DNA from: Neisseria polysaccharea ATCC 43768
GTDB lineage: Bacteria; Pseudomonadota; Gammaproteobacteria; Burkholderiales; Neisseriaceae
Assembly (NCBI GenBank): GCA_000176735.1
Contig: ADBE01000112.1
Location: forward strand, 62,001-126,000
Direction of reading: 5' to 3'
DNA length: 64,000 nt
This document shows positions 37,579-42,225 of the stretch, piece after piece. Within the stretch, counting starts at the first letter, position 1. Each line of letters opens with the position of its first letter. The notes under the pieces were generated by a model. It was not told the origin of the DNA, did not search any database, and saw only the letters and a program-made list of their open reading frames with translations. The translations under genes were made by a program, and so were the position numbers.

Positions 37579-38694
37579 ATGGATATGAATTTAAGTATCG
37601 TTGTTCCTATTTATAATGTCGAAAGTTATTTGGAAGCGTGTTTAAGTTCCATAGAACCTATATTAAGTAATGAAAATGTCGAACTTATCCTTGTGAATGA
37701 CGGGTCAAAAGACGGAAGTGAAGATATATGTTATAAATATATAGATAAAATATCAAACAACAAACAACAAACAACAAACAACAAACAACAAACAACAAAC
37801 AACAAACAACAAACAACAAACAACAAACAACAAACAACAAACAACAAACAACAAACAACAAACAACAAACAACAAACAACAAACAACAAACACCGGACAC
37901 CAAATATCAAATATATATATCAGGATAACCAAGGGTTGTCGGAGGCGAGAAATACCGGAATAAAAAATTCAAACGGAAAATATATAGTCTTTATTGATTC
38001 GGATGATTTTATTAATTGTCAGGTCTTGCTGGATTTTCTTAGTAAAGATGATATTGATATGCCGGATGTGTTTTTTTTAAATGCAGTTAAATATGATAAG
38101 GGAAGTGTTTCATATTTTGGCGAAGATTATCAGCCTGAAAAAATACTCAATCAATCCAAAGTCGAAGTTTTGAAAGGATTATGCCGATTTAGAAAATTTC
38201 CGGGTTCGGCGTGGAATAAGATTATAAAAAGAGAATTGATTATTAGAGAAAAACTGTTTTTTGAAAAGGGAATTTATTCTGAAGATATCGAATGGTCAAT
38301 GAGGTTATTTAATGCGGCAACAACTTTTTCTTATTTGGACGGTTGTTATTACTATTATCGGCAGGGAAGAAAAGATTCTATTACGGGAACTGTTTCGGAA
38401 AAAAGTATAAAGTCATTATTATATATTTTGGAGAAAAATGCGGAAATGGAATTTAATAGGGATATATCAAGTTATCTTTATTCCTTTCTTTCCTACGAAT
38501 ATCTCGTTTTGCTTTTTATAATGACGAGTAAAAATATAGGGTGCGATGCTGATATAAAAAGAAGGGCGTATCATTTAAGGTTTATGCTGTTAAAGTCCAA
38601 TAAGTTGATATATAAGCTGATATTCCCGATAATCACATTATTCGGGGTCGATATTACAGGCAGGATTTTAAAAGCAATCAGGGGGAATGTTTAA
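37579..38694 (+). CDS. pglE: Phase-variable pilin glycosyltransferase PglE, in the ON frame
   Basis: A 371-residue GT2 enzyme: VVPIYNVESYLEACL, VNDGSKDGSEDIC, then a low-complexity NNKQQTT insert encoded by the repeat tract, then NQGLSEARNTGIKNSNGKYIVFIDSDD (DxD). In meningococci PglE adds the second galactose to the pilin O-glycan that PglL transfers. The repeat number (19) keeps the frame open. A GAGG site lies 8 bases upstream of the ATG. The gene is clearly more AT-rich than its neighbours, which suggests acquisition. Its 3' end is duplicated in inverted orientation at 39.7 kb. Confidence 0.88.
   Translation: MDMNLSIVVPIYNVESYLEACLSSIEPILSNENVELILVNDGSKDGSEDICYKYIDKISNNKQQTTNNKQQTTNNKQQTTNNKQQTTNNKQQTTNNKQQTTNNKHRTPNIKYIYQDNQGLSEARNTGIKNSNGKYIVFIDSDDFINCQVLLDFLSKDDIDMPDVFFLNAVKYDKGSVSYFGEDYQPEKILNQSKVEVLKGLCRFRKFPGSAWNKIIKRELIIREKLFFEKGIYSEDIEWSMRLFNAATTFSYLDGCYYYYRQGRKDSITGTVSEKSIKSLLYILEKNAEMEFNRDISSYLYSFLSYEYLVLLFIMTSKNIGCDADIKRRAYHLRFMLLKSNKLIYKLIFPIITLFGVDITGRILKAIRGNV
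37758..37890 (+). repeat. CAACAAA heptanucleotide repeat, 19 copies, inside pglE
   Basis: A perfect tract of 19 units, with partial units on each side (37754-37892 in all). Seven is not a multiple of three, so a gain or loss of one unit shifts the frame; with 19 the gene is ON. Three units encode the heptapeptide NNKQQTT. Confidence 0.97.
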
Positions 38695-38734
38695 TAAATC
38701 CTTTAACAATATACATCTTACCGAAGGAGGAAAA

Positions 38735-39271
38735 ATGAACGCAATCCGAACTTTCCAAAACCGCACGCCCGAAATCCACGAAAGCTGTATGATAGACGAA
38801 GCGTGCGTCGTCATCGGCGAAGTGTCGCTTGCCGAAGATGTTTCCGTGTGGCCGTGCGCCGTGTTGCGCGGCGATGTGAACAGCATCACCGTCGGCGCGC
38901 GCAGCAATATACAGGACGGCAGCGTCCTGCACGTTTCCCACAAAACCGCCGCCAAACCCGAAGGGTCGCCGCTGGTTATCGGCGAAGACGTTACCGTGGG
39001 GCACAAAGTGATGCTGCACGGCTGCCGAATCGGCAACCGCGTCTTGGTCGGTATGGGCAGCACCGTTTTGGACGATGCCGTGATTGAGGACGAAGTGATG
39101 ATCGGTGCGGGCAGCCTCGTTCCGCCACGCAAACACTTGGCAGGCGGCTATCTTTATGTCGGTTCTCCGGTCAGACAGGTGCGCGTGCTGACCGATGAGG
39201 AAAAAGCCTTTTTGAAGTATTCCGCCGCGCATTATGTGAAGCTGTCGAAACAATACCGACAAGCGGAATAA
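38735..39271 (+). CDS. Gamma-carbonic-anhydrase-like hexapeptide-repeat protein (YrdA/PaaY family)
   Basis: A 178-residue left-handed beta-helix protein. The hexapeptide turns are seen from VVIGEVSLAEDVSVWPCAVLRGD to the end. The three zinc-site histidines are in VLHVSHK and TVGHKVMLHGC, and NIQDGSVLHV is conserved. The start follows a strong GAAGGAGG. The physiological reaction is uncertain, since YrdA-type members often lack strong carbonic anhydrase activity. A copy of its first 63 codons lies inverted at 39443-39628. Confidence 0.85.
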   Translation: MNAIRTFQNRTPEIHESCMIDEACVVIGEVSLAEDVSVWPCAVLRGDVNSITVGARSNIQDGSVLHVSHKTAAKPEGSPLVIGEDVTVGHKVMLHGCRIGNRVLVGMGSTVLDDAVIEDEVMIGAGSLVPPRKHLAGGYLYVGSPVRQVRVLTDEEKAFLKYSAAHYVKLSKQYRQAE

Positions 39272-39340: not shown

Positions 39341-39442
39341 TTTACAGTTTCACCGAGTGCTCGCGTGTTTCGTGGAACACGATGTCTGCCGGCGTTCTTG
39401 CGTCAGATTCAGGTTGACGCGGTTAGGAGCGAGGTAGGCGAG
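39341..39442 (-). pseudogene. Duplicated 3' remnant of prfC
   Basis: About 100 bp match the last 33 codons of prfC (40630-40735), in the same orientation, with several substitutions and a one-base deletion that ruins the final residues. The match ends abruptly at GAGGTAGGCGAG, where carbonic-anhydrase sequence begins. Confidence 0.85.
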
Positions 39443-39788
39443 GCCGTCCTGTATATTGCTGCGCGCGCCGACGGTAATGCTGTTCACATCGCCGCGCAAC
39501 ACGGCGCACGGCCACACGGAAACATCTTCGGCAAGCGACACTTCGCCGATGACGACGCAGGCTTCGTCTATCATACAGGTTTCATGGATTTCGGGCGTGC
39601 GGTTTTGGAAAGTTCGGATTGCGTTCATTTTTCCTCCTTCGGTAAGATATATATTGTTAAAGGATTTATTAAACATTCCCTCTGATTGCTTTTAAAATCC
39701 TGCCTGTAATATCGACTCTGAATAATGTGATTATCGGGAATATCAGCTTATATATCAACTTATTGGACCTTAACAGCATAAACCTTAT
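39443..39788 (-). repeat. Inverted copy of the pglE 3' end and the 5' end of the carbonic-anhydrase-like gene
   Basis: About 345 bp repeat 38577-38927 in reverse orientation with few differences, including the GAAGGAGG site and the first 63 codons. Because it is fused to the prfC remnant, a 92-codon chimeric ORF (39350-39628) is formed; it is probably non-functional. Confidence 0.9.
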
Positions 39789-39979
39789 TAGATAATAGCG
39801 CGATGGAAAGCTTCTTTGGACGATTAAAAATGGAATGTTATTACGGTAAATGATTTGAGACGTTCTAACAACTGGAAAAAACGATTCATGAGTACATTCA
39901 TTATTACAACCATGAGCGCATTCAGGGGAAACTAAAAGGACTGAGCTCTGTGAATTACAGAACTCAGTCCTTGAACTAA
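39788..39979 (+). pseudogene. IS3-family (IS150-like) transposase C-terminal remnant
   Basis: Translation reads NSAMESFFGRLKMECYYGK, with the last Glu of the DDE triad, then after in-frame stops at two points HEYIHYYNHERIQGKLKG and a terminal stop. Only about 64 codons of orfB remain. Just beyond, CTAACTTTTGGGGTCAGATC (39986-40005) looks like the element's end. Confidence 0.85.
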
Positions 39980-40003
39980 ATCAGTCTAACTTTTGGGGTC
40001 AGA

Positions 40004-40387
40004 TCATTTTACGGAGCTTTTTTTGTTGTGTGCTTTAAGCCATTTTTGCATTTGTTCAATTTCCGCTTGTTGTGCGTTAATAATATCCTCAGCAAGCTTA
40101 CGCATCTCAGGATCCTTTCCGTATTTTAATTCAACTTCCGCCATTTTTACTGCGCCAATATGGTGTGGCAGCATACCTGCTGCAAAAGCAACATCAGGAT
40201 CTTTATATTGCGCAGCTGCCATCATGTCTTGATGCATTTGATTCATACCTTGCATTAATTCTTGTTGCATTGCAGAACCTGTCGACATTTGCATATTCAT
40301 GTGTGCTTGATGCGGTTGTTCATTAGCGTGGGCATGAATTGAAACTGCAGCAGCACTAAGTGTGATAAAAGTCATAAGTTTTTTCAT
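40004..40387 (-). CDS. DUF305 periplasmic protein, Met/His-rich, probably copper-binding
   Basis: A 127-residue protein with a Sec signal peptide (cut near HAHA, about residue 21). A Met/His-rich segment (QAHMNMQMSTGSAMQQ; GMNQMHQDM) leads into the DUF305 core MLPHHIGAVKMAEVELKYG and a C-terminal helix. DUF305 proteins such as CopM of Synechocystis bind copper. The gene is AT-rich and has no DUS, so it looks transferred. The stop codon touches the IS3 remnant's end, so the last residues may be altered. The upstream promoter has MerR-type geometry. Copper binding is inferred. Confidence 0.8.
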   Translation of the reverse strand: MKKLMTFITLSAAAVSIHAHANEQPHQAHMNMQMSTGSAMQQELMQGMNQMHQDMMAAAQYKDPDVAFAAGMLPHHIGAVKMAEVELKYGKDPEMRKLAEDIINAQQAEIEQMQKWLKAHNKKSSVK

Positions 40388-40421
40388 GTTTTTCGCCTAT
40401 GTAATAGCTGAATAAGTACAA

Positions 40422-40452
40422 ATTATAAACCTTGACCTAAGGTTAAAGTCAA
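40422..40452 (-). promoter_or_regulatory. MerR-family (CueR-like) operator-promoter of the DUF305 gene
   Basis: On the minus strand TTGACT (40447-40452) and TATAAT (40422-40427) are separated by exactly 19 bp. The spacer holds an inverted repeat AACCTT-N5-AAGGTT. The long spacer with a dyad between -35 and -10 is the hallmark of promoters that MerR, CueR or ZntR activate by untwisting DNA. Confidence 0.8.
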
Positions 40453-40595
40453 CATTTGTTCCGAAAATGTTTGGTGAGGTGCTAAAAGCTAAAATAAGAC
40501 AATATTTGAGCTGCGTTACGGATTTATGTTGCTGCTGTGCCTGACCATTGGAAAGTTTGCTTGGGATTTATTGGGTTGATATCGAATGAAAAAAA

Positions 40596-40622
40596 AGGCC
40601 GTCTGAATGTTTCAGACGGCCT
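40596..40622 (-). terminator. AG-type paired-DUS terminator after prfC
   Basis: AGGCCGTCTGAA and its reverse complement, 3-base loop, followed on the minus strand by T8. Both 12-mers are the AG dialect of commensal Neisseria, not the AT dialect used elsewhere in the window. Confidence 0.9.
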
Positions 40623-40629
40623 TTGTGTT

Positions 40630-42225
40630 TTACAGTTTAACCGAATGTTCGCGCGTTTCGTGGAACACGATGTCCGGCCAGCGTTCTTGCGTGAGTCCCA
40701 AATTCACGCGGTTGGGGGCGAGGTAGGCGAGGTTGCCGCCCGCGTCGATGGCGAGATTGCCCGCGTTGGCTTTTTCAAACTCCGCCAGTTTTTTCTTGTC
40801 GTCGCACGATACCCAGCGCGCCGACCAGATGGATGCGCTGTCGAACACGGCTTCCACGCCGTATTCGTTGGCGAGGCGCGAGGTTACGACTTCAAACTGC
40901 AACACGCCGACCGCGCCCAAAATCAAATCCGCGCCGCTCATCGGTTTGAACACCTGTACCGCGCCTTCTTCGCCGAGCTGTTGCAAACCTTTTTGCAGTT
41001 GCTTGATTTTCAGAGGGTTTTTGATGCGGACACTGCGGAACAGTTCGGGCGCGAAGAAGGGGATGCCGGTAAACGCCAGTTGTTCGCCTTCGGAGAAGCT
41101 GTCGCCGATTTGGATGTTGCCGTGGTTCGGGATGCCGATGATGTCGCCGGCGTAGGCTTCTTCCACCAGCTCGCGGTCGTGCGACATAAAGGTTACCACG
41201 CTGGAGGCGGCGATTTCGCGGTTGATGCGAAGGTGTTTCATCTTCATACCGCGCTCGAATCTGCCGGAGCAGACGCGCAAGAAGGCGATGCGGTCGCGGT
41301 GTTTCGGGTCCATATTGGCTTGGATTTTAAAGATAAATCCGGAAAACTTAGCCTCGTCCGGCTCGACCATGCGCACGGTCGCGTCGCGCGGTTTCGGTGC
41401 GGGTGCCCAGTCAATCAATGAATTGAGGATTTCCTGAATACCGAAGTTGTTAATCGCGGAGCCGAAGAACACGGGCGTGAGTTCTCCGGCGAGAAATTCG
41501 TCAAGATTAAATTCGTTGGAAGCCGCCTGCACCAATTCGATTTCGTCGCGCAACTGTTGGATTTCTAACGGAAAGCGTTGTTCCAATTCGGGATTGTCTA
41601 TGCCTTTGATGATGTCGAATTCGTGCGGCAGACGTTCGCCGCCGGCTTCAAAGAGATAGATTTCGTCGTTCAGGATGTGGTACACGCCCTTGAAGTTTTT
41701 GCCCATACCGATCGGCCAGGTAACGGGCGCGCAGCGGATTTTTAAAATGTTTTCCACTTCGTCCAAAAGTTCCAGCGAATCGCGCACTTCGCGGTCGTAT
41801 TTGTTCATAAAGGTAACAATCGGCGTATTGCGCAGGCGGCAGACGTTCAACAGTTTGATGGTTTGCGCTTCCACGCCTTTTGCCGCGTCGATGACCATCA
41901 AGGCGCTGTCAACGGCGGTCAATACGCGGTAGGTATCTTCGGAGAAGTCTTGGTGTCCCGGCGTGTCCAAGAGGTTGACGGTGTGGTCTTTGTAGTCGAA
42001 CTGCATTACGCTTGATGCCACGGAAATGCCGCGCTGCTTCTCGATTTCCATCCAGTCGGAAGTGGCGAATTTGCCGGTTTTCTTGCCTTTTACCGTACCC
42101 GCGCTCTGAATCGCGCCTGAAAACAGCAAGAGTTTTTCGGTCAGCGTGGTTTTACCCGCGTCAGGGTGGGAGATGATGGCAAACGTGCGGCGGCGGCGCA
42201 CTTGGTCGAGGATTTCTTGGGACAT
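40630..42225 (-). CDS. prfC: Peptide chain release factor 3
   Basis: A 531-residue translational GTPase that recycles RF1/RF2 after termination. It has G1 [15 protein letters not shown], the Switch I region with [13 protein letters not shown]3 DTPGHQDF and G4 NKYD. It is full length. A GGCCGTCTGAA-type site lies 5' of it and AG-DUS lie 3', so this copy was probably imported from a commensal species. Confidence 0.97.

Follow-up and report, generated by a model that had tools for sequence, protein, structure and literature searches.

A Haemophilus-type copM gene behind a CueR-type promoter in a Neisseria genome in which no CueR was detected

The window analysed here, a 64,000-nucleotide stretch of the Neisseria polysaccharea ATCC 43768 genome, contains at the prfC locus a short copM-type gene, preceded by a promoter of the CueR type and abutted at its 3' end by part of an IS3-family element (Table 1). 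The gene opens with an ATG codon and encodes a protein that contains 15 Met and 8 His residues but lacks Cys, and whose N-terminus resembles a signal peptide as judged by eye. The protein contains a DUF305 domain (PF03713, E 4.4e-20, 72.7 bits against a cut-off of 27) and is assigned to the CopM family by the NCBIfam model NF049983 (E 4.9e-36, 122.6 bits against a cut-off of 90), as were all seven related-locus proteins run against the NCBIfam library. Its sequence matches in the PDB include the DUF305 protein 7vw1 (E 1.5e-31) and Synechocystis CopM 5fej (E 2.6e-20). Across 72 distinct CopM-like proteins (derived from 81 sequences, the query and 80 fetched loci), residues M48, M51, M55, M72, H75 and M82 are invariant, while H76 is kept in 71, M113 in 70 and M95 in 69. 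The product is probably a copper-binding, periplasmic protein of the CopM family; copper specificity is assigned because of family membership, and both Cu(I) binding and export are predicted properties.

Table 1. Features of the copM locus, numbered from the first position of the window
Feature	Coordinates	Strand	Basis
copM-type gene, DUF305/CopM protein, 127 aa, probably exported	40004..40387	-	ORF, Pfam, NCBIfam, alignment
-10 box TATAAT	40422..40427	-	letters checked
19-bp spacer TTAACCTTAGGTCAAGGTT, contains most of the CueR-type operator	40428..40446	-	letters checked; compared with the box described in PMC10187127 (available text)
Operator ACTTTAACCTTAGGTCAAGGT, of the form ACTTTAA-N7-TCAAGGT	40449-40429	-	letters checked
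-35 box TTGACT	40447..40452	-	letters and coordinates checked
Residual similarity to the Haemophilus stretch between copM and rdgB, possible donor footprint	40488..40515	-	alignment; limits approximate, by eye
IS3-family element end, Haemophilus type, abuts copM 3' end	39788..40003	+	sequence matches
Terminator-like stem-loop in IS end, downstream of copM	39936..39972	-	consensus match only
Terminator-like stem-loop after prfC, upstream of copM	40594..40624	-	consensus match only

One characterised relative is CopM of Synechocystis sp. PCC 6803, a copper-protective protein that is periplasmic and partly extracellular and binds Cu(I) with a KD of ∼3e-16, according to the available text of PMC4335983. 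The two proteins are alike in family, in their richness in Met and His and in the absence of Cys, and the MxxHH motif of Synechocystis CopM, the subject of a peptide study (PMC11836926, as far as its available text goes), corresponds to M72-x-x-H75-H76 in the window's CopM. They differ in domain number and in control: the Synechocystis protein has two DUF305 domains and is governed by the CopRS two-component system, whereas the window's protein has one and its gene stands behind a CueR-type promoter. Salmonella CueP, according to the available text of PMC4335983 a copper protein of the periplasm that is controlled by CueR, offers a likeness in location and in regulator; it was compared by description only, the window's CopM being a DUF305 protein.

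By eye, five of the seven bases agree between the two half-sites of the copM operator, which form an imperfect dyad, and each half-site lies one base away from the Haemophilus half-site ACCTTAA. The spacer of 19 bp and the dyad between the -35 and -10 boxes give copM the architecture of a CueR-type promoter, which a generic sigma-70 scan omits, as it allows spacers of 16-18 bp only. An earlier note on this DNA had described an exported Met/His-rich DUF305 protein behind a 19-bp-spaced promoter of the MerR family with a central dyad; the family models and the checked letters bear out both halves of that description, with export judged by eye only. A characterised counterpart is the H. influenzae CueR system, in which the box ACCTTaA-N7-TaAAGGT lies in a 19-bp-spaced promoter (PMC10187127, available text). 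Promoter architecture, spacer length and operator type are shared by the two; the H. influenzae promoter serves copZ-copA, which encode a chaperone and a P-type ATPase and adjoin cueR, whereas that of the window drives an unlinked copM in a genome where no cueR was found. The two terminator-like stem-loops that flank the gene suggest that copM may be read as a short single-gene transcript. The stem-loop after prfC contains what we take to be paired uptake sequences.

Expressed as a 15-position motif (TTGACYTT-N11-AAGG-N2-TA-N3-T), the CueR-type promoter has a single exact match in the 2.03-Mb genome, at copM, and the reversed control has no match in the same 2.03 Mb even with one mismatch. A longer pattern drawn from the copM site was absent from all 100 shuffled versions of the window. 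The match at the copM promoter is more than chance. A looser dyad pattern with up to three mismatches was set aside as non-discriminating, since it gave 13 matches genome-wide against 37 for its reversed control. With one mismatch allowed, the 15-position motif has one other match in the window's genome (C72:64669), a site that recurs in two copM-bearing genomes (N. bergeri, G005, and G007) and in three without copM (G015, G020 and G039); no copA, copZ or cueR lies in the 3 kb examined around it.

The GC content is 0.396 in copM and 0.327 upstream of it, against 0.55 in prfC and 0.529 in the window. The DNA of the window is identical to that of the Actinobacillus plasmid pAg1-3216 at 443 of 469 bp and shows 93.4-93.6% identity over 469-481 bp to three Haemophilus loci (L034, L035 and L036). 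Judged from its composition and these near-identical copies, copM is a horizontally acquired gene, as the earlier note held. A phage origin finds no support, the upstream DNA (40390-40640) having no match in the phage collection that was searched. On the plasmid pAg1-3216, copM spans the start of the record (L025:1-357 plus the record end) and is absent from the gene table.

Sequence of Haemophilus type occurs on both sides of the window's copM. The gene is flanked by rdgB or an rdgB remnant and by ispH in seven Haemophilus loci (L034, L036-L040 and L042), with rdgB reduced to a 55-residue 5' remnant in L034 and L038; H. sputorum (L035) carries a 24-residue rdgB remnant only, and ispH was not found in that locus. 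A trace of the sequence that precedes rdgB is present in the copies of the window's genome, N. bergeri, G009, G007 and G022, and was not found by alignment in N. elongata (L033) or G037. On the other side, the IS3 end abuts copM in the window's genome, N. bergeri and G009, with one occurrence per genome; it has eight matches of 94-95% in H. haemolyticus (G050), a full-length match of 88% in H. seminalis (G046) and two short matches of 85% in G015. In G015, G020 and G039, the prfC locus is present but contains no copM. Because of these footprints and the low GC, the transfer would have run from Haemophilus to Neisseria. The window's genome matches both N. bergeri and G009 at 99.5% in the IS end; for copM with its promoter the identities are 98.2% (N. 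bergeri) and 96.8% (G009), and for the part of prfC they are 96.4% and 93.5%, respectively. The insert is thus closer than prfC, as expected if it spread between species once these had parted. The window's genome and N. bergeri have identical promoters and differ at a single place, downstream of the -10 box and ahead of the start codon; the operator is the same as in the Haemophilus copies L034, L039 and L042. The -10 box is TATGAT in the eight Haemophilus copies and the Actinobacillus plasmid, against TATAAT in the window; an adaptation of this box to the loss of CueR was considered and dropped, as the CueR-bearing genome G009 has TATAAT too.

Of 46 Neisseria genomes, 24 have a CueR above the model cut-off of 147.4 bits. 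The short copM is present in seven Neisseria genomes, five of which have CueR (G007, G009, G013, G022 and G037); no CueR was found in the remaining two, the window's genome and N. bergeri (40.6 bits in the latter). Five further Neisseria genomes above the DUF305 cut-off have a longer frame. With at most one mismatch, the motif is found at copM in all eight Haemophilus and all seven copM-bearing Neisseria genomes, and beside cueR in all nine Pasteurellaceae genomes and in G007, G009, G013 and G037, while G022 has a site before copA and none beside cueR. These searches gave 45 matches in total over 19 genomes, against 14 for the reversed control. The copM site of Rodentibacter has two mismatches and hence lies outside this set. 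In the Haemophilus genomes examined, copM and copZ-copA, the latter divergent from cueR, have nearly identical promoters; two of the Haemophilus CueR proteins fall slightly below the cut-off (146.4 and 145.4 bits), yet adjoin copZ-copA. The copA genes behind cueR in G007, G009, G013 and G037 encode proteins 93-95% identical to that of the window's genome (over 347 residues), and copZ was read between cueR and copA in G007, G009 and G037.

More widely, the motif matches at 12 or more of its 15 positions upstream of 39 of 78 copM loci, compared with 16 of 1560 shuffles (80 loci were fetched and two left out for short flanks). Eleven of the 39 are the nearest relatives of the window's gene (L032-L042, 70-96% protein identity); at L049, the best-scoring match is out of register. 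The other 39 loci score below 12 of 15 and come chiefly from further Enterobacterales (Kosakonia, Klebsiella, Kluyvera, Pantoea, Chimaeribacter and others), along with Psychrobacter and Orbaceae. It is likely that copM belongs to the CueR regulon of Pasteurellaceae, where operator and CueR are both present, and CueR would be expected to control copM in the Haemophilus donors; judged from the promoter motif by itself, copM is also likely to belong to the CueR regulon of several Enterobacterales and of Pseudomonas. In Rodentibacter myodis, a MerR-family gene (L041:5600-5968) adjoins copM and is 39% identical to Haemophilus CueR over ∼75 residues. In the H. haemolyticus genome that contains L038, four tandem copZ-like ORFs lie between cueR and copA (L124:1955-3025); tandem copZ has been described in H. 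influenzae (title of PMC10187127).

Two MerR models found a single MerR-family protein in the window's genome, on another contig, in agreement with the earlier note, which saw no MerR regulator in the window. This protein is NmlR-like and is encoded divergently from an adhC-like gene (the labels AdhC and NmlR come from inspection by eye and from the gene order given in PMC4776306). Within Neisseria, the nmlR-adhC arrangement is confined to meningococcus-related species, as stated in the available text of PMC4776306, and it is present in the window's genome. The best score of the CueR model is 41.2 bits, for the NmlR-like protein, against the cut-off of 147.4; CueR, the protein that would make this a CueR-activated promoter, was thus not found in the draft assembly searched (139 contigs, estimated 99.99% complete), and it is unlikely that a cueR gene was missed. 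The copA gene is divergent from a trxB-like gene (named by eye) and has no CueR operator: within 500 bp the motif is matched at no more than 10 of its 15 positions, whereas the copM site matches all 15. The available texts of PMC10903467 and PMC9280163 describe N. gonorrhoeae as lacking CueR, and that of PMC9280163 gives N. meningitidis a putative CueR entry.

The earlier note had proposed that a resident CueR-type protein acts on copM in trans, and had named the copA promoter of the same genome as the place to look for a matching operator. As no such operator is found at copA, the proposed membership in a CueR regulon fails for the window's genome. Activation of copM in trans by a resident CueR-type protein in response to copper would agree with the intact operator, and CueR and operator do occur together in Haemophilus and in the five Neisseria genomes named above; since the assembly yielded neither a CueR nor, at copA, a CueR operator, we regard it as very improbable in this strain.

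We consider it fairly probable that copM derives from Haemophilus, that its CueR-type promoter is now stranded, because no CueR was found in the window's genome, and that its expression is steady and independent of copper. A short segment, comprising the rdgB-side trace, the CueR-type promoter, copM and the IS3 end, would have come from a Haemophilus-type bacterium; it now resides at the prfC locus in three of the Neisseria genomes examined. In the donors, CueR would bind the operator and, when cytoplasmic Cu(I) is high, the 19-bp-spaced promoter would be remodelled; copM would be transcribed together with copZ-copA, and CopM would capture Cu(I) in the periplasm. In the window's genome, the promoter would be neither repressed nor activated by CueR, copM would be expressed at a low to moderate steady level, and CopM would act as a constitutive periplasmic copper buffer. 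Both the predicted level and the predicted lack of a copper response draw on H. influenzae, in which a Pcop reporter is raised ∼12-fold by copper in a CueR-dependent manner and is ∼3.7-fold higher in a cueR mutant when copper is absent (PMC10187127, available text). The cueR-mutant data suggest a copM level between the uninduced and the induced state.

A less favourable fate for the gene would be that of a silent passenger, a recent and undecayed arrival whose CueR-less promoter is too weak to matter. Promoters of the MerR family with a 19-bp spacer are poor without their activator, and no CueR was found here. Few differences have accumulated since arrival, and dN/dS is uninformative on selection for function: comparisons of the window's copM with four Haemophilus copies, which involve 11-16 differences apiece, give values of 0.21-0.60, while values above 1 occur in several pairs that include N. 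bergeri or G009. The higher activity of Pcop without CueR than with uninduced CueR (∼3.7-fold, PMC10187127, available text), however, means that CueR-less activity need not be nil; the -10 box is a perfect consensus, and the copM frame is uninterrupted in the window's genome, N. bergeri and G009. A silent copM is on balance unlikely. In G009, the DUF305 search gave an odd match with an internal stop, but the copM of this genome reads as an intact 127-aa frame.

The operator may also have been taken over by NmlR, the sole MerR-family protein found, in which case copM, in concert with copA, trxB and adhC, would be switched on by nitrosative or carbonyl/thiol stress. The adhC promoter likewise has a 19-bp spacer (TTGCTT-19-TAAACT, by eye) and matches 11 of 15 positions of the CueR motif, and copA of N. 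gonorrhoeae is placed under NmlR in a review (PMC10903467, available text). The dyad between adhC and nmlR, CTTTAGAGTTAACTCTAAAG, nevertheless has an even centre and half-sites unlike those of the copM operator, and by eye it is absent at copM; moreover, the operator, shared letter for letter with Haemophilus loci, shows no shift towards NmlR. We hold a takeover by NmlR to be unlikely, and we give little credence to the broader proposition that an NmlR circuit has captured a CueR promoter and so wired a periplasmic copper protein to nitrosative/carbonyl stress. A resident regulator outside the MerR family might confer a copper response on copM, for example the response regulator MisR, which resembles P. 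aeruginosa CopR and is discussed as a possible copper regulator in the available text of PMC9280163; the conserved promoter is of the CueR type, and such control seems highly unlikely.

The CopM/DUF305 family and the CueR-type promoter were each already known. A literature search by titles and the beginnings of abstracts, with a coverage that included few subscription papers, returned no report of copM from Haemophilus or Neisseria and none of its control by CueR. What is new is the pairing of copM with a CueR-type promoter, together with the likely stranding of this promoter where no CueR was detected. The reading that this strain switches copM on with copper through CueR is thereby corrected. 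Promoter and gene are nearly unchanged across seven Neisseria genomes, of which five have CueR and two do not; this set provides a natural test of what becomes of a metal-responsive promoter that has moved without its regulator.

Beside the copM insert, a 352-nt inverted repeat, 97% complementary, occupies 38569-38920 and 39443-39794 and represents a partial inverted copy of a carbonic-anhydrase-like gene (38687-39271, named by eye); the 3' end of prfC is present in a second copy at 39341-39443. The aligned stretches of N. bergeri and G009 have only one copy of the first repeat (38569-38920). Further away, ∼20 perfect units of the 7-base sequence CAAACAA lie at 37754-37892 within a glycosyltransferase-like ORF (37579-38694, named by eye), which is likely to be phase-variable.
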